Shown one piece after another: positions 2,506-55,755 of a stretch of 56,103 nt of DNA. The DNA is taken from positions 1 to 56,103 of IMG/VR virus record IMGVR_UViG_3300034061_003450; one strand, given 5' to 3'. The position numbers and the translations under genes are program-made. This stretch comes from a virus. A model generated the notes under the pieces. The model searched no databases, was not told the DNA's origin, and saw only the letters and a program-made list of their open reading frames with translations. Each line of letters begins with the position of its first letter. The first letter of the stretch is position 1.

Positions 2506-3369
2506 ATGACCGCAACCGCCCCACCAAGACCGAGACGCGGCGCCCGCAGCCTGAAGGTGCGCGAGGCGCCTGTCGGTGACACGTCCAAGCTCGGGAGCTT
2601 CCCGGCGCCGACGGCGATCTCTGAGCAGCTTGTCACCGAAAACCTCAAGCTTGCGTTTAGCCGCGCCAACCGGTACGCCGCTCGCACGCGGATGCCGTTG
2701 GATGATCTCGAAGCCGCGGCCTACGTCGGCCTGGTCCGTGGTGCTCGGGCGTTCGACCCAGCCCGCGGCTGGACATTCAGCACGTGCGCCGTGCGGTTCA
2801 TCGATGGCGCGATCCTCCGGTATCTCCGCGACCGGGGCCACGCCATCAAGTTCCCCATGCGTTGGCGGGAGATCGGTCCGAAGGTCCGCCGGCTGCTGAA
2901 TGAGGGCAAGACCCTCGCCGAGGTGACGGAAGCGACCGGGATGGAACCCGACGAGATCCGCGCCTTCATGGCTGCCACGGCGGCGCCGGGTGAGATCGAC
3001 CCCAACCTGATCGGCGCGTGTGATCCGCTGGAGTTCGTCGAACCAGGCACGCCTGAGGCCGATGATCTGGAGCGGATCCAGGCCGAAGCGTTCGCCAAGC
3101 TGATTCCTGCCGACCGGGTGATCCTGCAGCAGTTCTGGTCGGACCCTTCGCGGCAGGGTTACCCGATGCGGCAACTGGAGGCGCTGGATCGCGCCGTGCG
3201 ACGGATCACGGGGCCAGCTCAGCAGGCGCGATCAGTGGAGTCGATGCCGTTGGGGTTCAATGTGGAGCTGGCGGCAGTGCCGGAGGAGGGCAAGCGGACC
3301 AGGCGGAGCAGGACAGAGCTCGATGATGCAGCGGAGCAGATGGGCCTGCTGGCGTTACTGGAAAACTGA
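2506..3369 (+). CDS. Sigma-70-like protein with region 2, late cluster
   Basis: About 287 aa. Residues 40-125 match sigma-70 region 2: LVTENLKLAFSRANRYA, then DDLEAAAYVGLVRGARAF and a TFSTCAVRFIDGAILRYLRD segment, the core- and -10-binding helices. A following EGKTLAEVTEATGMEPDEI stretch resembles a region 3-type HTH. A clear region 4.2 HTH is not visible, so -35 recognition may be lost or altered. It sits between TerL and portal, so it is expressed with the late genes and could direct or sustain late transcription. Its stop codon lies within the first GGAAAACTGA motif. ATG 2506 is chosen over GTG 2500; neither has a clear ribosome site. Confidence 0.8.
   Translation: MTATAPPRPRRGARSLKVREAPVGDTSKLGSFPAPTAISEQLVTENLKLAFSRANRYAARTRMPLDDLEAAAYVGLVRGARAFDPARGWTFSTCAVRFIDGAILRYLRDRGHAIKFPMRWREIGPKVRRLLNEGKTLAEVTEATGMEPDEIRAFMAATAAPGEIDPNLIGACDPLEFVEPGTPEADDLERIQAEAFAKLIPADRVILQQFWSDPSRQGYPMRQLEALDRAVRRITGPAQQARSVESMPLGFNVELAAVPEEGKRTRRSRTELDDAAEQMGLLALLEN
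3360..3369 (+). promoter_or_regulatory. Late motif copy 1 (GGAAAACTGA)
   Basis: Exact copy of the recurrent 10-mer. Its last three bases are the stop of the sigma-like gene, and its first base is 32 bp before the GTG start of the portal gene, which has no good Shine-Dalgarno sequence. Confidence 0.6.
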
Positions 3370-3391: not shown

Positions 3392-4858
3392 GTGCCGCTG
3401 CCGAAGTACGACCACCCGGCGACTGATGCGGCGCTGCCCTCGTTTGTGCATCCGGATCTGGATGATGTTCTGGAGGATCTGGAACTCGTTGAGGATGTTT
3501 GGCGAAGGCTGAAGGGGAAAAAGGAAGAATACCTGCCCCGTCACCAGAAGGAGCCAAAGGACGCATATAACCTAAGACTAAAGAATGCAGTCTTTACTAG
3601 CTTCTTCAAGGAAGGCATCATCGCCTTTGCCGGCGCGTTGTCGCGGTTTGAGTGCCGAGATGCGCCCAAGACCTTTATGGATAACTTGGCGAACATCGAT
3701 GGCGCCGGGAACAGCCTTAAGGCATTCATGACGATCGCCGATTGTTGGGTGCTCAGGGACGCCGGAACGCTGCTCACGGTGGACATGCCGCCGGGAATCC
3801 CCAACGATCGGGCAGTCGAGGGGCAGTCGGCGCGTCGGCCGCACCTTGCAAGGGTGCAGCGTCGGAACCTGCTGAACTGGGACCCGATCGAGGTGAACGG
3901 CGTGGAGCGATGCACCGCCTGCACGATTCTGGAATGGGCAAAGGTGAAGGTGGGCCGCTATGGCGCCACCTATGAGCCTCGCTACCGGGTGATGGAAGGC
4001 GGAACCTGGAGGCTGCTGCGGCTGGTGAAGCAGGAGAACGGGCCGGATCCGTATCGGGTGGAGGAGGTAGAGGGCGAGACCGGGGAGTTCACCGATCACA
4101 GGGGCAACAAACTGGAGTTGCCGCCGGTGGAGTGGTACGGGGCCACGCCGGATGGTTTCGGCCGCGGCGAGATGCCATTGAAATCGCTCGCCGACCTGAA
4201 CCTGGCGCACTTCTACGAGTGGTCGGATAAGCAGCAGCAGCTCTATCGGACAGTGCTGATCACTCCCTGGCGCGAGGGGGCATCGCCCGGATCGCCGGCC
4301 ATGGTGCTCGGCCCCCACGGCGGGATCGAGGTGCCGACCGGCGGGAAGGTGGGCCTGCTGGAACCGTCCGGCGAATCGCAGACCCACCACAAGGCGCAAC
4401 TGGAGCACATCGAGGGCCTGATCGATCGGTTGACGCTGGCGTTCCTCACGAGCGGTGCAGCCAAGACGGCGACGCAGGCGAACCTGGAGTCGGCGCAGCT
4501 ACAGGCGACGCTGGCGACGCTGGCCGAGGCGAAGGGATCGGCGATGGAATCGATCTACCGCCTGTGGGCAGCGTTCACCGGCGAGGATGCCGTTGAGGGT
4601 GCCGGTATCGACATGGCGCCGGGCATTGCGGATCAGCAGGTGACGGGCGAGACGCTGATGCTGGCGGACAAGCTCTACAACAGCGGTCTGATCAGCCGCG
4701 AGACGGTGGCGCAGTTGCTGCATCGGGGCGGGCTGCTGGAACCAGGGCGGACGGCGGATCAGGAATTGGCGGCGATCAAGAAGGAGGAGCCGGAGCCGGC
4801 GGTGACTCCGGGGGTGAGCGATCCGGAGACGGTTGACTTCACGCCGGCCGCCGCCTGA
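3392..4858 (+). CDS. Portal protein (DUF4055-like)
   Basis: 488 aa from a GTG start. The segment KDAYNLRLKNAVFTSFFKE followed by IIAFAGALSRF is the kind of N-terminal block seen in DUF4055 phage portal proteins. The long helical part around ASGAAKTATQANLESAQLQ-like sequence (residues 350-410), in which the chain lines the channel, and an acidic proline-rich tail are also typical. Twelve copies would form the DNA entry ring at the head vertex. It follows the terminase genes and overlaps the next head gene by one base (TGATG). Portal function is well supported by length and position; the exact family is an inference. Confidence 0.85.
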   Translation: MPLPKYDHPATDAALPSFVHPDLDDVLEDLELVEDVWRRLKGKKEEYLPRHQKEPKDAYNLRLKNAVFTSFFKEGIIAFAGALSRFECRDAPKTFMDNLANIDGAGNSLKAFMTIADCWVLRDAGTLLTVDMPPGIPNDRAVEGQSARRPHLARVQRRNLLNWDPIEVNGVERCTACTILEWAKVKVGRYGATYEPRYRVMEGGTWRLLRLVKQENGPDPYRVEEVEGETGEFTDHRGNKLELPPVEWYGATPDGFGRGEMPLKSLADLNLAHFYEWSDKQQQLYRTVLITPWREGASPGSPAMVLGPHGGIEVPTGGKVGLLEPSGESQTHHKAQLEHIEGLIDRLTLAFLTSGAAKTATQANLESAQLQATLATLAEAKGSAMESIYRLWAAFTGEDAVEGAGIDMAPGIADQQVTGETLMLADKLYNSGLISRETVAQLLHRGGLLEPGRTADQELAAIKKEEPEPAVTPGVSDPETVDFTPAAA

Positions 4859-5907: not shown

Positions 5908-6126
5908 ATGGATAACACCCTCGGGCTATTCCTTTCCTTGCGCGTAGGCGTCGCGTTGCGTGATACCGAAGGGACGCGGCAACTGCTGCGCAAGGCGGCC
6001 ACCGAGCATGATCAGGGCGAGGGTGAGCAGATCGTGATTCTGCTCGCCCGTGGGTTGGATCCGTTGGCCAAGCAATGGCTGGCGAATGTGTTGGGGCCGC
6101 GGAAAACTGATGCGATGGCCGGGTGA
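5908..6126 (+). CDS. Small hypothetical head-region protein
   Basis: 72 aa, not recognised. It is mostly helical (LRDTEGTRQLLRKAATEHD, then EQIVILLARGLDPLAKQWL). GGGGG lies just before the ATG. Position between the minor head protein and connector genes suggests a small virion or assembly factor. Its 3' end contains, in frame, an exact copy of the late motif (6101-6110). Confidence 0.65.
   Translation: MDNTLGLFLSLRVGVALRDTEGTRQLLRKAATEHDQGEGEQIVILLARGLDPLAKQWLANVLGPRKTDAMAG
6101..6110 (+). promoter_or_regulatory. Late motif copy 2 (GGAAAACTGA)
   Basis: Exact copy inside the last codons of the preceding gene, here not at its stop codon. It starts 30 bp before the ATG of the lysine-rich 41-aa gene. 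Confidence 0.5.
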
Positions 6127-8573: not shown

Positions 8574-8583
8574 GGAAAACTGC
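8574..8583 (+). promoter_or_regulatory. Late motif variant GGAAAACTGC
   Basis: One-base variant in a true intergenic gap, starting 33 bp before the ATG of the tail chaperone gene. The downstream CCGCGATGGC is also found after the minus-strand copy at 11802-11811. Confidence 0.5.
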
Positions 8584-11399: not shown

Positions 11400-11512
11400 T
11401 GGTGTAGCTGGAAAACTCACCTGATACTCCGGGTGGGCGATCCCAGATCCGGCGCCGCTCAAAGCAAGGATCTGGGGATGGATTAGGGAGGGGCTCTAGG
11501 GCCCCTTTCTTA
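11400..11512 (+). ncRNA. Candidate small structured RNA
   Basis: The gap 11234-11527 has no convincing protein gene but has several stem-loops on the + strand. CTCACC (11415-11420) pairs with GGTGGG (11432-11437). CCCAGATCC (11443-11451) pairs perfectly with GGATCTGGG (11468-11476). A terminator hairpin follows at 11489-11506. A near copy of the late motif, GGAAAACTCA, starts at 11410. This could be an RNA of about 100 bases. A 17-codon GTG frame (11433-11486) is an alternative reading, and a decayed gene end is another. Confidence 0.4.
11489..11511 (+). terminator. Rho-independent terminator
   Basis: AGGGGC (11489-11494) and GCCCCT (11501-11506) form a 6-bp stem with a 6-base loop, followed by TTTCTTA. 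It ends the candidate small RNA and, read on the other strand, lies just past the end of the leftward gene 11528-11779. Confidence 0.7.
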
Positions 11513-11801: not shown

Positions 11802-11823
11802 GCAGTTTTCCCGGGGAAACTGA
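11802..11823. promoter_or_regulatory. Back-to-back late motifs between divergent genes
   Basis: GGAAAACTGC on the minus strand (11802-11811) and GGGAAACTGA on the plus strand (11814-11823) face away from each other with 2 bases between. Each starts 30-32 bp before the start codon of the gene it faces (11779 minus, 11844 plus). The arrangement shows that the motif follows gene direction and does not depend on an overlapping stop codon. Confidence 0.6.
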
Positions 11824-12017: not shown

Positions 12018-12448
12018 CCCTCCCAACCGACCCCCTCGGCGTCCACGACCTCCTGGCGGCCGACACCGCGCTGATGGCACTGGTGGGCACCTATGCGCTG
12101 GCCGACGGCACCACGCGGCCGGCGATTGCCACCCTCTGGCCCAATGAACGCGGCCCCGGCGGCAACACCACGGCCGGCGTCGAGGTGGTCGTCGCCCGGG
12201 GCACCAGCGGCACCGCCGAGACGTTCCTCTCCGGCGGCGAGGCCATCACCCGCGTGATCAGGCTGTATGTGACGCAGTGGCAGCCGGCCAGCGGCACTGC
12301 CAATCTGGAGGCCGCCGTCGTGCGGATCGGTCAGCTCCTGCCCGGCGCCACCTGGCAACCCATCAACCTCCCGGATGGCTTGACCGGCCTCGGGCAATAC
12401 GCGGTGCGATGGGACGCGGAAGAGGCTGACCGCTGGGCGGAAAACTGA
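12014..12448 (+). CDS. Probable tail terminator / minor tail protein
   Basis: 144 aa. The opening DPLGVHDLLAADTALMALVG, a beta-rich middle and ETFLSGGEAITRVIRLYVTQW fit the mixed alpha/beta size class of siphovirus tail terminators that cap the tail tube. It lies immediately before the tape measure gene, though terminators are more often before the tube gene. Its last codons Glu-Asn-stop are late motif copy 3. Confidence 0.55.
   Translation: MTLPTDPLGVHDLLAADTALMALVGTYALADGTTRPAIATLWPNERGPGGNTTAGVEVVVARGTSGTAETFLSGGEAITRVIRLYVTQWQPASGTANLEAAVVRIGQLLPGATWQPINLPDGLTGLGQYAVRWDAEEADRWAEN
12439..12448 (+). promoter_or_regulatory. Late motif copy 3 (GGAAAACTGA)
   Basis: Exact copy ending in the stop of the previous gene, followed by GGCAATAGG, and starting 30 bp before the GTG of the tape measure gene. 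Confidence 0.6.
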
Positions 12449-15473: not shown

Positions 15474-15483
15474 GGAAAACTGA
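15474..15483 (+). promoter_or_regulatory. Late motif copy 4 (GGAAAACTGA)
   Basis: Exact copy in the 18-base gap after the tape measure stop, ending only 3 bases before the next ATG. Spacing here differs from the 28-34 bp class. Confidence 0.5.
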
Positions 15484-19779: not shown

Positions 19780-19789
19780 GGAAAACTGA
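19780..19789 (+). promoter_or_regulatory. Late motif copy 5 (GGAAAACTGA)
   Basis: Exact copy in the gap after the tail tip stop (19775), followed by AGACAACAGC, starting 34 bp before a GTG start. Confidence 0.6.
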
Positions 19790-22202: not shown

Positions 22203-22351
22203 CCGACCCCCAACCCGACCACACCCAGCTCCTGCAGTCCGTCCTCATGCGTGCAGCAGCCAACAGGGCCGCGCAGATCAGCCGCCAGCAGTCCGCCGCA
22301 CTCGTCCAGGACATTAAGGCGCAGCAGGCGAAGGCACGTCGGGAAAACTGA
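22199..22351 (+). CDS. 50-aa helical protein ending in the late motif
   Basis: Starts by ATGA overlap with the previous stop and reads MTDPQPDHTQLLQSVLMRAA and onward to QDIKAQQAKARREN. One amphipathic, Gln- and Ala-rich helix. Its Glu-Asn-stop end is the late motif itself (22342-22351). Likely a small assembly factor; not recognised. Confidence 0.6.
   Translation: MTDPQPDHTQLLQSVLMRAAANRAAQISRQQSAALVQDIKAQQAKARREN
22342..22351 (+). promoter_or_regulatory. Late motif copy 6 (GGAAAACTGA)
   Basis: Exact copy overlapping the stop of the 50-aa gene, starting 31 bp before the ATG of the scaffold gene. Confidence 0.6.
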
Positions 22352-23219: not shown

Positions 23220-23229
23220 GGAAAACTGA
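23220..23229 (+). promoter_or_regulatory. Late motif copy 7 (GGAAAACTGA)
   Basis: Exact copy in a true non-coding gap right after the terminator, followed by AAGCAACAGG. It starts 28 bp before a short ATG frame (23248-23274, MRSKRQGT) and 108 bp before the capsid ATG. This copy is the best argument for a transcriptional role. Confidence 0.6.
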
Positions 23230-25030: not shown

Positions 25031-25189
25031 ATGAGCCTGGTTCTCTCAAGCGTGTCGCCCGGCACCCTGCCGCCTGAGCAGCCGGAGCCGGAGCAGAAGC
25101 CGCGCAAGCGTGCGCGAGACACTGACGGCCAGTTCGTCGGTGATGACCCGGCGACGCCTGACGTTGACGAAGCGTGGCAGGAAAACTGA
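25031..25189 (+). CDS. 52-aa Pro/Glu-rich protein
   Basis: Reads MSLVLSSVSPGTLPPEQPEP, then EQKPRKRARDTDGQFVGDD, ending in Glu-Asn-stop at late motif copy 8. GGAGGG precedes the ATG by 4 bases. The DTDGQFVGDDP part resembles the short RDxxGRF motif of small phage structural proteins. Probably disordered; function unknown. Confidence 0.6.
   Translation: MSLVLSSVSPGTLPPEQPEPEQKPRKRARDTDGQFVGDDPATPDVDEAWQEN
25180..25189 (+). promoter_or_regulatory. Late motif copy 8 (GGAAAACTGA)
   Basis: Exact copy ending at the stop of the 52-aa gene and only 4 bases before the next ATG. Confidence 0.5.
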
Positions 25190-33942: not shown

Positions 33943-34896
33943 TTACATCGCCTCCTTATTGATGACGGACTGCAGAAAGGCACGCGCCATCTCGTTTGTT
34001 GCATAGAAGTGCGCGTGAGCTTCGACGCCTAACAGCAACAGCCCACCGAGGTCATTTCCGTTGGTCTTAATCAGAAGCCTTGCTAACGGCCCGCCTAGAT
34101 GCTCAGCCCAACCGCAAATGCAATGAGTGGTCTCGCACGTATGCCAGTCGCTCATCTCCAATGCGTCATCAGTTGCCAGCGCGGCATGGGCAACAGCCAG
34201 CAACCTGGACGGCGCATCCTCGGCAATGGGAAGGCCAATGGCGTAGCTGAGGTTGGCGTCGCGGAGGTTGGCGTAGCTGAGGTTGGCGCTGCGGAGGTTG
34301 GCGTAGCTGAGGTTGGCGCCGCTGAGGATGGCGCCGCTGAGGTTGGCGCCGCTGAGGTCGGCGCTGCGGAGGTTGGCGTAGCGGAGGTTGGCGTCGCTGA
34401 GGTTGGCGTCGCGGAGGATGGCGCCGCTGAGGTTGGCGCCGCTGAGGTCGGCGCTGCGGAGGTTGGCGTAGCTGAGGTTGGCGCCGCTGAGGATGGCGCC
34501 GCTGAGGTTGGCGCCGCTGAGGTTGGCGCTGCGGAGGTCGGCGCTGCGGAGGTTGGCGTCGCTGAGGATGGCGTCGCGGAGGATGGCGTCGCGGAGGATG
34601 GCGTAGCTGAGGTCGGCGTAGCTGAGGATGGCGTAGCGGAGGATGGCGTAGCTGAGGTTGGCGTAGCTGAGGTTGGCGTCGCGGAGGTTGGCGTCGCGGA
34701 GGATGGCGCCGCTGAGGTTGGCGCCGCTGAGGTCGGCGCTGCGGAGGTTGGCGTAGCGGAGGTTGGCGCCGCTGAGGATGGCGCCGCTGAGGTTGGCGCC
34801 GCTGAGGTTGGCGCGGGCGCCGACTGGGTTATTAGCCAGCCATAGACCGTGGAGCCTAAGGATTTCTTTCAACTCGTCTTGCGTGTACGTAGTCAT
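33943..34896 (-). CDS. Pentapeptide-repeat protein
   Basis: 317 aa. Residues about 24-215 are almost only A(N/D/I)LxxA-type pentapeptides (ANLSGANLSGAILSGANLRY), which fold as a right-handed quadrilateral beta helix that can mimic DNA. The flanks are an N-terminal helix (DELKEILRLHGLWLANN) and a C-terminal domain with MSDWHTCETTHCICGWAEHL. At DNA level nearly every repeat is one of a few 15-mers. Such proteins are abundant in cyanobacteria; a role as a gyrase protector or anti-restriction mimic is possible but not shown. It lies between recE and recT. Confidence 0.9.
   Translation of the reverse strand: MTTYTQDELKEILRLHGLWLANNPVGARANLSGANLSGAILSGANLRYANLRSADLSGANLSGAILRDANLRDANLSYANLSYAILRYAILSYADLSYAILRDAILRDAILSDANLRSADLRSANLSGANLSGAILSGANLSYANLRSADLSGANLSGAILRDANLSDANLRYANLRSADLSGANLSGAILSGANLSYANLRSANLSYANLRDANLSYAIGLPIAEDAPSRLLAVAHAALATDDALEMSDWHTCETTHCICGWAEHLGGPLARLLIKTNGNDLGGLLLLGVEAHAHFYATNEMARAFLQSVINKEAM
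34240..34822. repeat. Tandem 15-bp pentapeptide repeats
   Basis: About 39 near-identical 15-bp units of the form GCTGAGGTTGGCGCC (plus-strand reading), with larger blocks repeated too. The uniformity at silent sites points to recent expansion or gene conversion. The opposite strand is also open across it, which is an artefact of the repeat. Confidence 0.92.
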
Positions 34897-35111
34897 CGGG
34901 ATGTCACGGTGAGGGTGAACGGCAGGCCATCGCTGATGAACAGCGCGGCCATGCTCAGAACGTCGTCGTCGCGGGCGAAGTCGTCGCACACGCCGTTCTC
35001 GAAGTGGAATCGATAGGAGCTGTCGCCTGGCCCGGGGTCGTGGACCACGGTGCAGAGGGGGTGGGCTTCAACGTCGGCCAGCGACGCGAGCGGGGTGAGG
35101 GTTGCAGTCAT
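34893..35111 (-). CDS. Small hypothetical protein
   Basis: 72 aa; MTATLTPLASLADVEAHPLC, then SSYRFHFENGVCDDFARDDD and FTLTVTSR. The first codons and the bases around them match those of the RecE-like gene, suggesting a copied start region. Overlaps neighbours by ATGA. Unknown. Confidence 0.6.
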   Translation of the reverse strand: MTATLTPLASLADVEAHPLCTVVHDPGPGDSSYRFHFENGVCDDFARDDDVLSMAALFISDGLPFTLTVTSR

Positions 35112-42474: not shown

Positions 42475-44259
42475 ATGCTCGGCGTCTCTTACTTGCGCTA
42501 CAGCAGCGCCGGCCAATCCGGCGGCACCAGCATCCTGCGCCAGACCGCCAACCCCGAGGCCTACTGCAAGGCCCGCGGCTGGCGGCTGTGGGAAGGCCCA
42601 GCCTATTCCGATCCGGGCGTGAGCGCCTTCGCCGGTGATCACCTGGCTGATGGTGACCTGGGCCGCTTCCTGGCCGACCACCGCGCCGGACGCTTCGGGG
42701 GTGAGCCGGTGGCCCTGCTGCTCGAGGACGTGGACCGATTCAGCCGGGCGTTTCCGCTGGCGGTGCTGCCGGTGCTGGTGGATGACGTGCTCAATGCAGG
42801 CATCACCCTCAGCCTGCTCAGTTTTGATCGGGACTACAGCCGCGAGAGCATCCGCGCCAACCCCCTTGAGCTGCAGGAGCTGCTGATGCGCCTCAGCGCC
42901 GCCCACGAGTTCAGCGAGAGGCTGAGCCGGCGAATCACCTTCGCGCACCAGCAGCGCCGCCAAGCCATCCGCGCCGGCCAGCCCACAGCACCCGGGCAGG
43001 CGCCGTCCTGGCTCAACCTGGGCCCCAGTGGCTGGGAGTTCAACTGGTACGCGCCCATCGTGCGCCGGGCCCTCGCCCTCAGCGCTGAGCACGGGGCCGC
43101 GGCGGTGGCCAGGATCATGAACGCCGAGGGCGTGCCATCCCCGGGCGAGGCGGTGCAGGCCCGGCGCCAGAACAACCCACGCCGCCGCCCCACCGCCGAA
43201 CCCAGGCGCATCCGCTGGACCGCCAGCACCGTGCAGCAGCTGCTGAGCGCACCGCAGATCCGCGGCGCCCGGCCCATCCGCACCCCCGGGCACAGTGCCA
43301 GGCTCCGGGCATGGAAGGAGCGCACCGCCCAACTGGCCCGCCAGGGTGTGGCCCGCAGCGACTGGCCCGCCCGCCCGCAGCAGACATGGGACCAGCCACA
43401 GGAGGCCTACTATCCCGCCCTGCTCACGCCGGCCGAGCACGCCGACCTGCTGGCGATGGTGGCCCGCCGCTGCCCACCGGAAGCCGGCCGCACCGATCGC
43501 CAGCGGTGGATTGCCAGCACCATGACCCGCTGTATCTGCGGCGAACGGATGGGCGCCACCGGCACCACCAGGCTGCAGGCCGCCGGCGTGAAGCGCTTCC
43601 TCTACCTGCGCTGCCGTGGCGCCGGCCGCAACGGAACCTGCTCCGCCCCGCTGGTGCCCATCCCTGTGGCACAGGCCCACCTGCTCACGCGGCTCACCGG
43701 CGATGACTTCGCCGTCATGCTCCAGCGCGATGCCGGCGCCGACCGGGCCCAAGCGCTGGCTGCGGCGATCCAGCACCAGCAGACTGCCGAGCTGGCCGTC
43801 GTCCGCCTCCAGCAGCAGCAACGGGCCGGCGATGCCGCCATGGCCATAGAGACCGACGCCCTGGTGCTCGGCGTGCTGGCCCGGCGCCAGGCCGTGATCG
43901 AGGCCCAGGCGCAGCAGGCTGCCCGGGCGCTGGCTGCGGCTCAGCGTGCGGTCGCGAAGGCGCAGGCGGCACCCTCCCTGGCCGCCCTTGGCGCTGCGGC
44001 ACAGGAGGAGATCCGCCGGACGCTGGCACGGTTTTCTGCTGGTGACGACTCAGAGGATGATCGGCGCATGGTCTGGCGCCACCTGCGGGCGCTGGGTCTG
44101 CGGGTGACGATCGACACGGCAGCGATGCGAATGGCGTTGCAGGTTGGCGACGGGCAGGCGGACTGGCAGCCGATCGATCCGGAGCTGGCTGCTTATGCCC
44201 TGAGCGCTGCAGCCACCGGGGCGGTGTTCGGGGACAACATCGTGTCGTGGGAGACCTGA
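42475..44259 (+). CDS. int: Large serine integrase
   Basis: 594 aa, usual size of large serine recombinases. The catalytic domain has YLRYSSAGQSGGTSILRQ with Ser10 as likely nucleophile, LEDVDRFSR and the LSLLSFDRDYSRESIRANPL segment. A recombinase domain follows (GPSGWEFNWYAPIVRRALAL), then a zinc ribbon (CICGERMGAT and CRGAGRNGTC, residues about 352-385) and a coiled-coil C-terminal part (TAELAVVRLQQQQ onward). It would integrate the phage at a bacterial attB with simple sites and needs a separate directionality factor to excise. This marks the phage as temperate. Confidence 0.92.
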   Translation: MLGVSYLRYSSAGQSGGTSILRQTANPEAYCKARGWRLWEGPAYSDPGVSAFAGDHLADGDLGRFLADHRAGRFGGEPVALLLEDVDRFSRAFPLAVLPVLVDDVLNAGITLSLLSFDRDYSRESIRANPLELQELLMRLSAAHEFSERLSRRITFAHQQRRQAIRAGQPTAPGQAPSWLNLGPSGWEFNWYAPIVRRALALSAEHGAAAVARIMNAEGVPSPGEAVQARRQNNPRRRPTAEPRRIRWTASTVQQLLSAPQIRGARPIRTPGHSARLRAWKERTAQLARQGVARSDWPARPQQTWDQPQEAYYPALLTPAEHADLLAMVARRCPPEAGRTDRQRWIASTMTRCICGERMGATGTTRLQAAGVKRFLYLRCRGAGRNGTCSAPLVPIPVAQAHLLTRLTGDDFAVMLQRDAGADRAQALAAAIQHQQTAELAVVRLQQQQRAGDAAMAIETDALVLGVLARRQAVIEAQAQQAARALAAAQRAVAKAQAAPSLAALGAAAQEEIRRTLARFSAGDDSEDDRRMVWRHLRALGLRVTIDTAAMRMALQVGDGQADWQPIDPELAAYALSAAATGAVFGDNIVSWET

Positions 44260-47564: not shown

Positions 47565-47869
47565 GCCACCCTCCTTTTCGGCGCCGCCGATCGCCGCAGC
47601 CGGTCGATGCAGGCCGGCAGGTCATCGCCGCTGACGCCTTCCCGGTGCATGCTCTCCAGCCCAGCAGCAAGCACCAGGCAGGGCTCCGGTGAGCCTCCTT
47701 CGCCGATGGCACGCATGCACTCACGGTGCATCGCATGGCAGGCGTTATGACACGCGGTCTCAATCAGGTCTTGATCAGGCATGGCTGCAAACGGTGGGTT
47801 CACCAGCAGCAGGCCCGTGCCGGCCGCTGGTTCGTACGTTGTGGGTGGGTACCAGGTGAATCGCGTCAC
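47561..47869 (-). CDS. Small protein with an NPPF motif
   Basis: 102 aa. LLLVNPPFAAMPDQDLIE is followed by CHNACHAMHRECMRA. NPPF recalls the methyltransferase motif IV in the neighbouring gene, but no AdoMet motif is present, so it is not a complete enzyme. His/Cys spacing could bind metal. Overlaps both neighbours by ATGA. Confidence 0.6.
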   Translation of the reverse strand: MTRFTWYPPTTYEPAAGTGLLLVNPPFAAMPDQDLIETACHNACHAMHRECMRAIGEGGSPEPCLVLAAGLESMHREGVSGDDLPACIDRLRRSAAPKRRVA

Positions 47870-48711
47870 GCCGCCACCTCCAGTAGTAACCGCAACCGGT
47901 TCAACGCACGCTTTTCCCGCTGCCGCACCCGCTCACGGCTCACGCCCAACCGCTTGCCGATCGATGCCAATGTCACCAGTTCATGGCTGCCGTATCGCAG
48001 GCCGATGATCTGCTGATCGATCGGCTGCAGATGCTGCATCGCCTGTTCCAGTTGTTCTCGCGCCGTTGTATTCAGCAGCTCGTCATCCGGCGACTGGTCA
48101 ACATCAGCCACCGCATCAACCAAGGCATTGCCGTCCTCGATCACCACCTCGTCAAGGCTGACCAGGCTCCAAACCCTGAGGGCAATATCAAGCTCGGCCA
48201 TCGATACGCCCGTGGCTCGTGCGGCCTCCGTCAGTGATGCCGTCGGGTGTTGTCGCTGGTATTTCTTGATCTTGCCTATCTTTTCGATCTGATGCACCGG
48301 CAGCCGGACGATCTTATCTTGATCTGACACGCCCCGTGTGATCGAGTGCCAGATCCACCAGTAAGCATAGGTGCTGAACTTGTAGCCGCGTTCCGGCTCA
48401 AATTTCTCCGCTGCCTTGGCTAGGCCAATATTGCCCAGGCTGATCACATCCATCAGCTCCAGCGTCTGGCACATCCGGTAGTATTTTCGGGCGATGGTCA
48501 CCACCAGTCGTAGGTTGGATTCCATCATCCGTTTGATCGCTCGCTGGCCGTTGCGCACCAGTCGTCGCTCAGCTTGTGTGGCGGGCTCGCGACCCTCAGC
48601 CTGGAACGCACGCATCTCCTGGATCTGTCGGCCTAACTGGATCTCCTGCTCAGTGGTCAGCAGCGGGATGCGGCCGATCTCGTTGAAGTAGGCGGTGGTT
48701 GAGTCGTGCAT
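47866..48711 (-). CDS. Full-length sigma-70 family factor, cyanobacterial type
   Basis: 281 aa. Region 1.2: TTAYFNEIGRIPLLTTEQEI (residues 4-23). Region 2: MMESNLRLVVTIARKYYRM, LMDVISLGNIGLAKAAEKF and GYKFSTYAYWWIWHSITRGV. Region 3: IRVLP-type HQIEKIGKIKKYQRQHPT. Region 4.2: LASIGKRLGVSRERVRQREK near the end. This is the plan of cyanobacterial group 2/3 sigma factors. It could redirect host RNA polymerase to phage promoters. Its ATG shares a base with the stop of the SSB gene, so it is made with replication proteins. Confidence 0.93.
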   Translation of the reverse strand: MHDSTTAYFNEIGRIPLLTTEQEIQLGRQIQEMRAFQAEGREPATQAERRLVRNGQRAIKRMMESNLRLVVTIARKYYRMCQTLELMDVISLGNIGLAKAAEKFEPERGYKFSTYAYWWIWHSITRGVSDQDKIVRLPVHQIEKIGKIKKYQRQHPTASLTEAARATGVSMAELDIALRVWSLVSLDEVVIEDGNALVDAVADVDQSPDDELLNTTAREQLEQAMQHLQPIDQQIIGLRYGSHELVTLASIGKRLGVSRERVRQREKRALNRLRLLLEVAA

Positions 48712-49145
48712 CAGAACACCACGGTCGGGGTGATGGCTGGCGTCGCCGCTGCTGCTGGGGCTGCAGGCGCTGCGGTAGGGGCAGTGTTCCCGGTCACCAC
48801 TGGGGCCCATTCCTCCACGCGGATCAGCAAATCCGTGCGTTCCATGCCACTGCGATCGGTCCACCTGTCGGTGCTGACTCGGCCGGTGACCTTCACGAGA
48901 TCACCCTTCCGCAGTTCGTTCGCTGCGCCCTCAGCATCCTCGCCCCACAGCTCAGCCTTGAACCAGTCGGGCGGCAGTGCGTTTGGGTCGTTCTTCTTTT
49001 GCCCCGGCCGGTTCACCGCCAAGCTGAGCTTGGTCTTGCAGGTGCCGGAGTTGAAATACTGAATCTCGGGATCACTGCCGAGGCGGCCGATCACGGTTTG
49101 CTGCGTCGATCGAAGGACCGCCGCCATGAGCTCAAGGATGTCCAT
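48711..49145 (-). CDS. ssb: Single-stranded DNA-binding protein
   Basis: 144 aa with an OB-fold: RSTQQTVIGRLGSDPEIQYF, TCKTKLSLAVNRPGQ, PDWFKAELWGEDAEGAANEL and KVTGRVSTDRW. The C-terminal tail is Ala/Pro/Thr-rich and ends in TPTVVF, without the acidic tip of bacterial SSB, so binding of host partners may differ. It covers single strands at the phage fork. Confidence 0.88.
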   Translation of the reverse strand: MDILELMAAVLRSTQQTVIGRLGSDPEIQYFNSGTCKTKLSLAVNRPGQKKNDPNALPPDWFKAELWGEDAEGAANELRKGDLVKVTGRVSTDRWTDRSGMERTDLLIRVEEWAPVVTGNTAPTAAPAAPAAAATPAITPTVVF

Positions 49146-49315
49146 CAGGTTGTGGGGGGCGTGATTGTGGACTGCGCCAGCTCCCGCCTGATCAAATCCC
49201 GCGCCCACACGGTCACGGGCACGTCGAGCTCACGGCAGCGGGTCTGGATCTCGCGGTAGAGGTCCTCACGCATCGTGAGCTGGATCAGGAATCGCCCGTC
49301 GGAGCGGCGGGTCAT
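49145..49315 (-). CDS. Ribbon-helix-helix DNA-binding protein
   Basis: 56 aa. GRFLIQLTMREDLYREIQTR then CRELDVPVTVWARDLIRREL is a CopG/Arc-like RHH fold. It is the first gene of the SSB-sigma unit and has a good promoter right upstream, so it may regulate its own operon. Confidence 0.75.
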   Translation of the reverse strand: MTRRSDGRFLIQLTMREDLYREIQTRCRELDVPVTVWARDLIRRELAQSTITPPTT

Positions 49316-49779: not shown

Positions 49780-50387
49780 GCCACCTCCTCCCAGTGGAAC
49801 CCCGCGCAGGTCCCGCCTTTCCGCAACGCAAACTGAATCGCTGGCTTGGTGACCCACATCGCCCGCGCTGCCGCCCGCACGCTCGGGAACACTTTCCCCG
49901 CCTCCACCGCACGCACCCTTCGCGCTGCTGCCGGTCGCCGCCGGTGCGTCGCCGCAATCTCCGCCGCCAACCGGTCATCCTCGATCGCCATCACCAGCCG
50001 CTGCTCCGGGATCCCGCCCAGCAACTCCGGGTGAGCCTTGGCGAACGCCACCAGGTCGCGTCGCGCCACATAGAACCGTGTCGCAGCCTTCAGCGACCGG
50101 CGTCGCCATGCCGGCAGCAGTCCGCGTTCGATCCAGCCCAGCGGCGTGTCTCCAGCGATCCCCAGCAGCCCCGCAATCCCCCCAACCGTCAGCCACTCGC
50201 CCGTCGCTGCCAGTGACAACCCATGCCGGTAGGCCGCTTGTTCGATCGCCATCGCACTACGGGCCGGAAATCCCTCACGGTTCGCCCACCGTCGATACAC
50301 CGTGATCGCCCTTTTGGCCGGCAGCTCACCCGCCAGCCGCTCAAGCTGGTCGACCTCGGCGGGGGTCCATGGGGGGCCTTTGCTCAC
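49776..50387 (-). CDS. Multi-HTH DNA-binding protein
   Basis: 203 aa with several helix-turn-helix-like parts: a SANT/Myb-like N-terminus (PPWTPAEVDQLERLAGELPA), a MerR-like middle (LTVGGIAGLLGIAGDTPLGW) and a NUMOD1-like C-terminus (KVFPSVRAAARAMWVTKPAI, then GFHWEEV). Arrays like this occur in homing endonucleases that lost their nuclease and in phage regulators. No nuclease motif is seen. Confidence 0.65.
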   Translation of the reverse strand: MSKGPPWTPAEVDQLERLAGELPAKRAITVYRRWANREGFPARSAMAIEQAAYRHGLSLAATGEWLTVGGIAGLLGIAGDTPLGWIERGLLPAWRRRSLKAATRFYVARRDLVAFAKAHPELLGGIPEQRLVMAIEDDRLAAEIAATHRRRPAAARRVRAVEAGKVFPSVRAAARAMWVTKPAIQFALRKGGTCAGFHWEEVA

Positions 50388-51229
50388 CTGAGCGCCTCCA
50401 TGTATTCCCTATCTTTTTGATCAACCCATGGCCTGTACATCTTTACGAAGAGCGGAATATCTACACCCATCGCTCTTGCTACAACTGTCGCAGGGGCTCC
50501 GACGTTGACGGCTCGGACTGCCCAGCTATGGCGAAGATCGCCGGGCGCAAACGGGCATCCGTACCTGCGAAACTGCTCGGCTGATCGGCGCCCGATTTGC
50601 TGGAGAGTGGTTTTTCTGAGGTCGGTACAGATCTGCGGAAGTGGTTCTTTTTCGCGTGCCAGCTTATCAACGCCAAGCACATGCAACCAATCGTGCATGT
50701 ATGGCAGAACGAGCCTGGCGGGGTTATTGACGATTTCGGGAACAGTAAGGATTCCCGTCCCGGTGTCTACTAATTGCGACACATCGCAAAAGAACGCCTC
50801 GTAGTTGCGAAGACCATACGCAGCCATCAGCGCGTAGACCAGTCGCCATCTTTTATTTGCAATTAGTTCAATCCCCGAGATGATTTCTTCATCGCTCAAT
50901 GGCTTCCGGTCTTTGACGCCTTTCTTGTCTGAGTACGCTTCTTCAATGAAGCCCCATTGATCCGGAAGGTCTAGCCCGGCAGATCGAGCTAACTGAAAGT
51001 AAACCTGCCGGCAGATTTGGTAGCTACGTGTTCCCGCGTTGTATTGAGCAAGCGCTTTTGAAAGCAGGTCAACACAGATTGGCTCGGATCCTGCGAGGGA
51101 GTCAAGGACCCGAAGATATGGCAGGTATGCGCCTGTCCACGTGCTTTTCTTAAGCATTTTCCCGTTGCTTTCCCCGGAGTCCCAGAAAAAAGCCTTTTCA
51201 AATGCGGCGATCGCTGAGCTGATCTTCAT
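50384..51229 (-). CDS. Tyrosine recombinase-like protein
   Basis: 281 aa. The C-terminal domain has an AAYGLRNYEAF box with the first Arg, GDLRHSWAVRAVNVGAPATV with the second Arg-His pair, and MYRPW with the candidate Tyr. The His that usually precedes the second box (H-x-x-R) is Gly and the usual GH before the Tyr is GV, so activity is uncertain, though related cyanobacterial proteins also deviate at the first place. GC is lower than in its neighbours. With a serine integrase present, it may act in dimer resolution or be a second integrase. Confidence 0.75.
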   Translation of the reverse strand: MKISSAIAAFEKAFFWDSGESNGKMLKKSTWTGAYLPYLRVLDSLAGSEPICVDLLSKALAQYNAGTRSYQICRQVYFQLARSAGLDLPDQWGFIEEAYSDKKGVKDRKPLSDEEIISGIELIANKRWRLVYALMAAYGLRNYEAFFCDVSQLVDTGTGILTVPEIVNNPARLVLPYMHDWLHVLGVDKLAREKEPLPQICTDLRKTTLQQIGRRSAEQFRRYGCPFAPGDLRHSWAVRAVNVGAPATVVARAMGVDIPLFVKMYRPWVDQKDREYMEALR

Positions 51230-53371: not shown

Positions 53372-53542
53372 ATGACGCAACCGCAGATGAAATCCCGCCG
53401 GCAGCGCCAGTTCATCACCCTCGATCTGCCACAGGAGCAGGTTGCGTGGCTGGACGCCCAAGCCGCGGACATCATGTCCCGCTCCGCCTTTGCTCGCCTC
53501 CTCATCTCTCGCGCCATGGAAGCGCAGGCCAAAGAGGGCTGA
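53372..53542 (+). CDS. Small RHH-like protein before primase
   Basis: 56 aa: MTQPQMKSRRQRQFITLDLP, QEQVAWLDAQAADIMSRSAF, ARLLISRAMEAQAKEG. The beta strand QFITLDLP and two helices fit a ribbon-helix-helix protein. Lies beside the operator-like element and may control the divergent promoters. Confidence 0.62.
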   Translation: MTQPQMKSRRQRQFITLDLPQEQVAWLDAQAADIMSRSAFARLLISRAMEAQAKEG

Positions 53543-53589
53543 TCCGTGGATGCCGACTCCCGCCCGGCCAGCCCCCGGAGCGCATAGGG

Positions 53590-55755
53590 ATGCGCCAACT
53601 CCTGCAAGACCTCCAGGCGTTGCCTGACGGCTGGAGCCTCGTCGCCGTTGACGGCAACAAACGCCCCTACCAGCCCGCTTGGCAGAAGAACCCCCTCACC
53701 AAGGACCAAGCTGCCGCCGAAATCAAAGCCGGCCGCGCCAAAGCCGTCGGCGTCATAGCTGGCCCCCTCTCCGCTGGCCTCCTGTTCGTTGATCACGACG
53801 GCATCTCCGCCACCGCCGAACTCGAACGCCTCGGCATCCCGCCCCGCACCCTTCCCCTCACCGCCGCCTCCACCTCCGGCCGCGACGGTCGCTTTCAACT
53901 TCTCTTCCGCGTTCCCGAGCGCTATTGGCCGCAGATGCGCAACCGGCGCGTCTTTGCCACCGGCCAGACCGACGCCGACGGCAAAGCCGAAAACCTCGAC
54001 TTCCGCTGGGCTGGCCATCAATCCGTCGTCATCGGTGCTCATCCCATCACCGGCGCATATCGCTGGCTCAAAGGCCGCAGCCCCGCCGAAGTCCAGATCG
54101 CCGAAGCACCCGAAGCGCTGATCCGTCTCCTCATTGAAGAGGAACCCTCGCCTCTCGCTCTCTTCGCTCAGCCCGCGGCACCCATCTCCGCCCCGCCGGC
54201 CTCCGGCCAGACGATCCCCCTCCTCGACTTCATCACCCGGGCCTCACGCGACCTCATCGAATCCGGCGGCACTCCCGGCTCATGGAACGACGATCAACTC
54301 AAGCTCGCACTCGATCTCGTCGGCACCGAATCCTGGATCCTCGCCCAAGGCCATCGCCCGGACATCACCGCCGCCGACGCCTTTGATCAGCACGTCCGCA
54401 ACGCCCAATCCAAGGCCCGCGATTTCGACGTCAAGAAAGCCCGCCAGCGTTTCGCCGGTGCTCTCAACCTCAACCCAACCCCAGCCACGCCCCTAGACAA
54501 GCTCCTCTCACGCCTCGCCTTTCACACCCGCACCCCACGCCCCTCCACACGCCTCAACCCCCCATCCTCCGCACCGACCACCGACCACCACGGGCAGGAT
54601 CCGCTCCCAGTCCACAACAAGCCCATCAAGCTCGAGGTTCCCGAACTCCTCGAAGTCCTCCGCTCACAAGCCAGCGACGGCGGAATCCGCTTCAACGTCT
54701 TCACCCAGCAGATCGAAGTCAACGGTCAGGTCTTCCCCGGCGCCGAGCGCTTCTACCTCCTCCTCGCTGAGCAAGGCATCAAAGCCTCCAAAGACCTCGC
54801 CATCGATTGCCTCCTCCAGGTCGCGCACGAGCACCCCTACGACCCGGTGACCCTCTACCTGGATCACGTCGCAGCCACCGTCGAACCCGCCTACATCGAC
54901 GCCCTCGCAACCGCCTACCTCCGCCCCACCGACGACGGCCCCACCCTCTACGACGAAATGCTCAAGCGCACCCTCATCGGTGCCGTTCGTCGTGCCTTTG
55001 AACCCGGCTGCAAGCACGACACCGCCTGCGTCCTCATGGGTGACCAAGGCGGCCGGAAATCATCCTTCTGGGCAGTCCTCGGCGGTCCCTTCTACAGCGA
55101 CGCCCTCGGCGATTGCTCCAGCAAGGACGACCTCATGATCCTTCACCGTTCCTGGCTCATGGAATGGGCGGAACTTGATCACGTCACCAGCCGCAAGCAC
55201 GCCGGCTCAATCAAAGCCTTCCTCACCCAGGCAACCGACATCTTCCGCGTCCCCTACGGGCGCAGTACCGAATCGTTCCCGCGTCGCGGCATCATCGTCG
55301 GCTCCACCAACCGCCAGACCGGCTTCCTCCAGGACGAAACCGGCAACCGCCGCTTCTGGATCATCCCCACGCCGGCCAACGAATCCAACCCCATCGATAC
55401 CCCCAACCTCGCCGCTGAGCGCGACGCGATCTGGTCGGCTGCCGTTCACGCTTACCGCGCCGGTGAAACCAGCTACCTGCCCGCTCACCTCGCCTCCAGG
55501 GTCGAAGAGGAGAACCTCGCCTACCAGGCCGAGCACCCCTGGAAATCTGTCGTCGAAGCCTGGCTCAACACCCCCGCAGCCACCGGCGGCACCATCACAT
55601 CAGAGCTGATCCTGACCGCTGCCGTCCAGAAACCCGTCGAACGTCAGACCCGTGCTGACCAGATGCAGGTTGCCAACCTCATGCGCGAGCTCGGCTTCGT
55701 CAAGCGCCGCACCACCGTCGGCAACGCGCAGCGCTGGGCCTTCATCAGGGCCTGA
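53590..55755 (+). CDS. Primase-helicase (PrimPol and VapE domains)
   Basis: 721 aa. The N-terminal PrimPol domain has WSLVAVDGNKRPYQPAWQKN, GVIAGPLSAGLLFVDHDG with the acidic pair of the active site, and a QLLFRVPERYW strand. After a Pro-rich linker the C-terminal half is a VapE-type helicase: GDQGGRKSSFWAVLGG (about residue 484) as P-loop, MEWAELDHVTSRKHAGSIKA, and RRGIIVGSTNRQTGFLQDE with GNRRFWIIP. In the P-loop the glycine before Lys is Arg. It should start and drive phage DNA replication. ATG 53590 follows ATAGGG. Confidence 0.9.
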   Translation: MRQLLQDLQALPDGWSLVAVDGNKRPYQPAWQKNPLTKDQAAAEIKAGRAKAVGVIAGPLSAGLLFVDHDGISATAELERLGIPPRTLPLTAASTSGRDGRFQLLFRVPERYWPQMRNRRVFATGQTDADGKAENLDFRWAGHQSVVIGAHPITGAYRWLKGRSPAEVQIAEAPEALIRLLIEEEPSPLALFAQPAAPISAPPASGQTIPLLDFITRASRDLIESGGTPGSWNDDQLKLALDLVGTESWILAQGHRPDITAADAFDQHVRNAQSKARDFDVKKARQRFAGALNLNPTPATPLDKLLSRLAFHTRTPRPSTRLNPPSSAPTTDHHGQDPLPVHNKPIKLEVPELLEVLRSQASDGGIRFNVFTQQIEVNGQVFPGAERFYLLLAEQGIKASKDLAIDCLLQVAHEHPYDPVTLYLDHVAATVEPAYIDALATAYLRPTDDGPTLYDEMLKRTLIGAVRRAFEPGCKHDTACVLMGDQGGRKSSFWAVLGGPFYSDALGDCSSKDDLMILHRSWLMEWAELDHVTSRKHAGSIKAFLTQATDIFRVPYGRSTESFPRRGIIVGSTNRQTGFLQDETGNRRFWIIPTPANESNPIDTPNLAAERDAIWSAAVHAYRAGETSYLPAHLASRVEEENLAYQAEHPWKSVVEAWLNTPAATGGTITSELILTAAVQKPVERQTRADQMQVANLMRELGFVKRRTTVGNAQRWAFIRA

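Follow-up and report, generated by a model that had tools for sequence, protein, structure and literature searches.

Sigma factors in the window

The virus record from IMG/VR analyzed here, referred to below as the window (56,103 bases), encodes two sigma-70-type proteins, one of them within the packaging genes, which raises the question of which of the two reads the late genes and how. The first is a 287-residue protein encoded on the plus strand at 2506–3369. Upstream of it are terS (393–893, PHROG 5e-8) and terL (895–2487 with a provisional start codon, PHROG 3e-81), and the portal gene follows at 3392–4858 (PHROG 5e-68), all on the plus strand, so that the PHROG matches bear out its placement between TerL and portal in a preliminary description of this DNA.

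That description had also credited the protein with a good region 2 and no clear region 4, which agrees with our Pfam scan: Sigma70_r2 matches residues 42–111 (2629–2838; E 1.3e-9, above the gathering cut-off), and Sigma70_r4 was absent. As a member of the sigma-70 family, the protein therefore has the region for core binding and −10 recognition, while the region for −35 recognition went undetected. Among 45 scanned relatives, r2 was matched in 37 and r4 in none at E ≤ 0.01. The protein also matches a PHROG sigma-factor family (1.7e-28), and AlphaFold2 modeled its region 2 (helices 37–110) and region 3 helices with confidence (pLDDT about 90). Structure prediction had been named earlier as the check that could overturn the sigma assignment; the fold is present, and the top PDB fold matches of the model are RNA polymerase sigma factors, the first being SigA in a Synechococcus holoenzyme (E 2e-6). 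By profile matching, the best PDB sequence matches include the sigma factors in 8x6g and 1l0o, presumably SigB and SigF, over regions 2–3. The region-3-like helices (residues 118–158, 2857–2979), through which this match extends, are followed by three helices (residues 183–235, 3052–3210) without a recognizable helix-turn-helix, possibly what is left of region 4.1. Beyond these are a divergent linker (residues 236–268, 3211–3309), with low pLDDT at 240–255 and poor alignment among relatives, and a C-terminal QMGLL motif (residues 278–282, 3337–3351) resembling those that bind the beta clamp.

The second sigma factor is encoded on the minus strand at 47866–48711, with its ATG at 48711 and its stop codon at 47866, and its Pfam matches cover r1.2, r2, and r4. 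It abuts the SSB gene (48711–49208, minus strand; Pfam SSB 1e-20), and its earlier description as a complete factor encoded with SSB is accurate. Besides SSB, the replication proteins recognized in the window are a primase-polymerase/VapE-type protein, a helicase, RecT, and an exonuclease. The main one (53446–55755, plus strand) combines a primase-polymerase with a VapE-like helicase domain in a single protein. A replicative DNA polymerase was not found among the window proteins scanned, which cover part of the genes, and a domain search of the record, which may be incomplete, found no DnaN domain. A serine-recombinase-type integrase and a weak tyrosine-integrase-like match, at 42475–44259 (plus strand) and 50384–51229 (minus strand), suggest a temperate phage, and a pentapeptide-repeat protein (33943–34989, minus strand) adjoins an exonuclease VIII-like gene. 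Judging from its relatives, the virus has a probable cyanobacterial host.

Distribution of the two-sigma layout

Two sigma factors in one phage of this kind are not in themselves new. The excerpts of the 2009 paper on P-SS2 (PMC2784084) describe a group 3 sigma factor, ORF003, right after terL and a group 2 sigma factor, ORF113, beside ssb, and assign sigma-70-type promoters and a possible special regulon. We found the same layout, with terL and ssb as neighbors, for the sigma pairs of S-CBS2 (gp77/gp61) and S-CRES1–3, and the window shares it, having one sigma gene directly after terL and the other beside ssb. Looking for the pair in related phages, as the preliminary description had proposed, thus finds it again in the same two locations. 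The gene that follows the short sigma is not portal in P-SS2, S-CBS2, and S-CRES, whereas in the window it is.

A search of viral contigs with the window sigma as a single protein gave no matches, and its relatives were obtained by profile searches. A short sigma lies within 3 kb downstream of TerL in 108 of the 112 fetched TerL-family loci with room for it, a rate that is biased upward because some of the loci had been retrieved through the sigma itself; those retrieved through TerL alone give the same link. The four TerL loci without a downstream sigma are distant, at 27–28% identity.

A repeated element before late genes

The left part of the window carries a short repeated element. The window holds 10 copies of the word GGAAAACTG, where 0.32 would be expected, and the right half has none; likewise, all 10 plus-strand copies of GGAAAACT lie in the left 32 kb, with none in the right half. 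On the plus strand, a word scan placed the element as GGAAAACTGA at 6101–6110, 15474–15483, 19780–19789, 22342–22351, and 25180–25189, as GGAAAACTGC at 8574–8583, and as the variant GGAAAACTCA at 11410–11419. Further copies of GGAAAACTGA overlap the stop codon of the short sigma, 22 bp before portal (3360–3369), precede the tape-measure gene (12439–12448), and follow a terminator-like hairpin (23220–23229). A lone minus-strand copy of GGAAAACTG/GGAAAACT at 11803–11811 sits beside a plus-strand copy with one mismatch at 11814.

The element recurs in relatives, as GGAAA[C/G]CT in freshwater-type phages and as GGNANNCTA in marine isolates, and its sixth base (A, C, or G) differs between subfamilies of the TerL-linked sigma, a variation that may reflect ancestry. 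In relatives, GGAAANCT or GGNANNCTA often starts within about 15 bp of the stop codon of the short sigma; GGAAANCT was found near that stop in 36 of 85 relatives, compared with 1% of random windows. Strand bias of the element is seen in twelve whole records. An unbiased 8-mer ranking returns many other words too; in that ranking, the strand-asymmetric words GGAAACCT and GGAAAGCT are prominent in two sigma subfamilies and not in the marine group.

Annotated isolates allow the element to be set against gene class. With late and early genes assigned by position and annotation, GGNANNCTA lies at most 70 bp upstream of late starts in 19/38, 21/39, 20/36, and 7/20 cases in four isolates, as opposed to 3/34, 2/37, 3/32, and 0/20 early-region genes in the same order. 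For S-CBS2 and P-SS2 together, the enrichment is strong (Fisher p 4e-7); P-SS2 (7/20 versus 0/20) is the cleanest independent check, since the definition of GGNANNCTA comes from annotated S-CRES gaps and S-CBS2 counts as a relative. The eight early-region matches include three before terS, two before ribonucleotide reductase, and one before portal. Those before terS, in S-CRES2 (L004:5126), S-CRES3 (L007:7404), and S-CBS2 (L005:9492), suggest positive feedback or autoregulation in these three phages, where the sigma may boost expression of the terS-terL-sigma unit to which it belongs.

The element stands at a fairly fixed distance, mostly about 20–25 bp, before late start codons, as might be expected of a translation or RNA-processing signal that is no promoter. 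This spacing is too great for a Shine-Dalgarno sequence, a reading that we discarded on that ground, and the distance is 40–50 bp in some cases; in addition, one window copy comes after a terminator-like hairpin and few copies precede early genes. We regard such a signal as very improbable. ARAGORN was also run on the tRNA genes suspected before late elements in some relatives and found none in 11 loci.

If the element is a promoter, the question is which sigma reads it. The preliminary description had assigned late genes to the complete sigma beside SSB, with the short protein as a modifier or an anti-host factor. The complete protein does have region 4 and does sit with replication genes, but no conserved −35 columns were seen upstream of the element, and its one-base variation tracks the subfamilies of the TerL-linked sigma, the only sigma with which it was compared. 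An element of this kind fits a sigma without a region 4 helix-turn-helix, which makes the short protein the better candidate for the late sigma; we would be surprised if the earlier assignment proved correct. Nothing seen in these sequence analyses hints at an anti-host role for the short protein. The idea of a two-sigma cascade is still plausible, and the pair is recurrent; it is the roles that look reversed. The late element is probably a promoter read by the short sigma, as far as its sequence and placement can tell, and the complete sigma would then probably serve an earlier class of promoters, either early/middle or host-type.

The C-terminal tail of the short sigma

The tail of the short sigma sets it apart within the window, where it is the only open reading frame of at least 60 residues, in six frames, with such a terminus. 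Among 85 distinct tails of TerL-linked sigmas, 71 carry Q..L[FL] or Q..L.[LFV] within the last 30 residues, including one (S-CBS2) counted through a chance match in a frameshifted tail, and many of the remaining 14 are near-misses. The motif takes forms such as QLGLL, QMGLL, QPSLF, and QGSLF. After clustering at 70% identity, it is present within the last 25 residues in 10 of 14 clusters, as opposed to a rate of 3.0% among 759 control genes and roughly 6% among shuffled tails; these figures concern a motif of five residues and a pattern that was spotted before testing. The published consensus for bacterial beta-clamp binding is QL(S/D)LF (PMC9690074). Four relatives end in an exact QLDLF, and the QMGLL of the window protein is an inexact match.

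Identical motif peptides are encoded by a variety of codon combinations (10 distinct spellings for QLGLL, nine for QPSLF, and eight for QGSLF), which indicates that the constraint is on the protein, and in an alignment of 45 sequences Q278 is nearly invariant though its flanks diverge. In S-CBS2, the recorded sigma gene stops early, and an out-of-frame stretch just downstream encodes LQGSLF followed by a stop (L005:12362–12568), so either the record is frameshifted or the gene is broken. Five sigmas (L011, L013, L014, L015, and L017) have a second motif, QLxLxL or QLxLL, some 30 residues ahead of the terminal one, which by its sequence could permit two clamp contacts. This internal repeat was excluded from the count, as it is not conserved (the window protein has PLGF there).

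From these patterns, the tail of the short sigma is a candidate beta-clamp-binding segment. The motif is missing from the sigma of P-SS2 and its nearest relatives, and since this group has the late element nonetheless, clamp contact is not universal. The same observation would be natural if the short protein were an ordinary late sigma of the group 3 kind that reads GGNANNCT and makes no use of the clamp, its tail instead binding RNA polymerase, a phage protein, or some other partner, and the resemblance of its regions 2–3 to ordinary alternative and primary sigmas points the same way. Against this, the tail fits the clamp consensus, exactly so in the four relatives mentioned, and is kept while its surroundings diverge. 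We consider a sigma that does without the clamp unlikely, if less so than the two alternatives weighed above.

A model for late transcription

The reading that we favor, and hold to be reasonably probable, is that the short protein is a late sigma for a single-element promoter and is held to the beta clamp of the host, so that late transcription becomes coupled to replication. Region 2 would bind the host core RNA polymerase and read GGAAANCT, or GGNANNCTA in the marine relatives, as a −10-only promoter, and the tail would bind DnaN, the sliding clamp of the host. A clamp from the host is proposed because a DnaN gene was not found in the record. A holoenzyme tethered in this way would be brought to phage DNA that is being replicated, and the start of replication would turn on the late genes.

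The closest parallel is found in T4, whose late sigma, gp55, has its region 2 joined through a variable linker to a C-terminal epitope for the clamp gp45 (PMC7892883, PMC2988020). The short sigma likewise has a region 2 but no detected region 4, followed by a variable linker, and its C-terminal sequence motif may correspond to the clamp epitope of gp55. Late genes in both systems appear to have a single-element promoter with no conserved upstream element, which for the phages described here is judged from the DNA only. T4 relies on a phage clamp, gp45, together with the coactivator gp33, whereas a host clamp is proposed here. The late promoter sequence of T4 is TATAAATA; the element found here is GGNANNCT. 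A GG-rich −10 element of this sort recalls sigmas of the SigB/SigF type in group 3, which are alike in regions 2–3; the short sigma differs from them in having no detectable region 4 and an added clamp-like tail. P-SS2 and S-CBS2 carry the window-type element at their late genes, even though the P-SS2 sigma has no tail motif.

The excerpts of the P-SS2 paper (PMC2784084) contain no description of the tail motif or of the late element. Our literature search, which covered titles and abstracts and did not extend to the original description of the S-CBS phages (Huang et al. 2012), turned up no phage sigma that binds a clamp other than that of T4 and, for cyanosiphoviruses, no late element of this kind. 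The clamp-like tail of the TerL-linked sigmas and the strand-specific late element therefore appear to be new, and together they offer cyanobacterial siphoviruses a concrete late-promoter element with a candidate sigma, for which we found no counterpart in the literature searched. The wider proposal is that freshwater-type and marine cyanobacterial phages have a replication-coupled late transcription independent of that of T4, in which a phage sigma fragment hijacks the host clamp and reads a family-wide GGNANNCT promoter with a subfamily-variable base; we lean toward it only slightly. Late transcription activated by a sliding clamp has been described (PMC2988020) as confined to the T4 family or as differing significantly from what other systems do. 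If our proposal is correct, these phages would provide a second clamp-activated case, this time with the host clamp, making it a recurring strategy, and would show how phages without a clamp of their own tie their late genes to replication.
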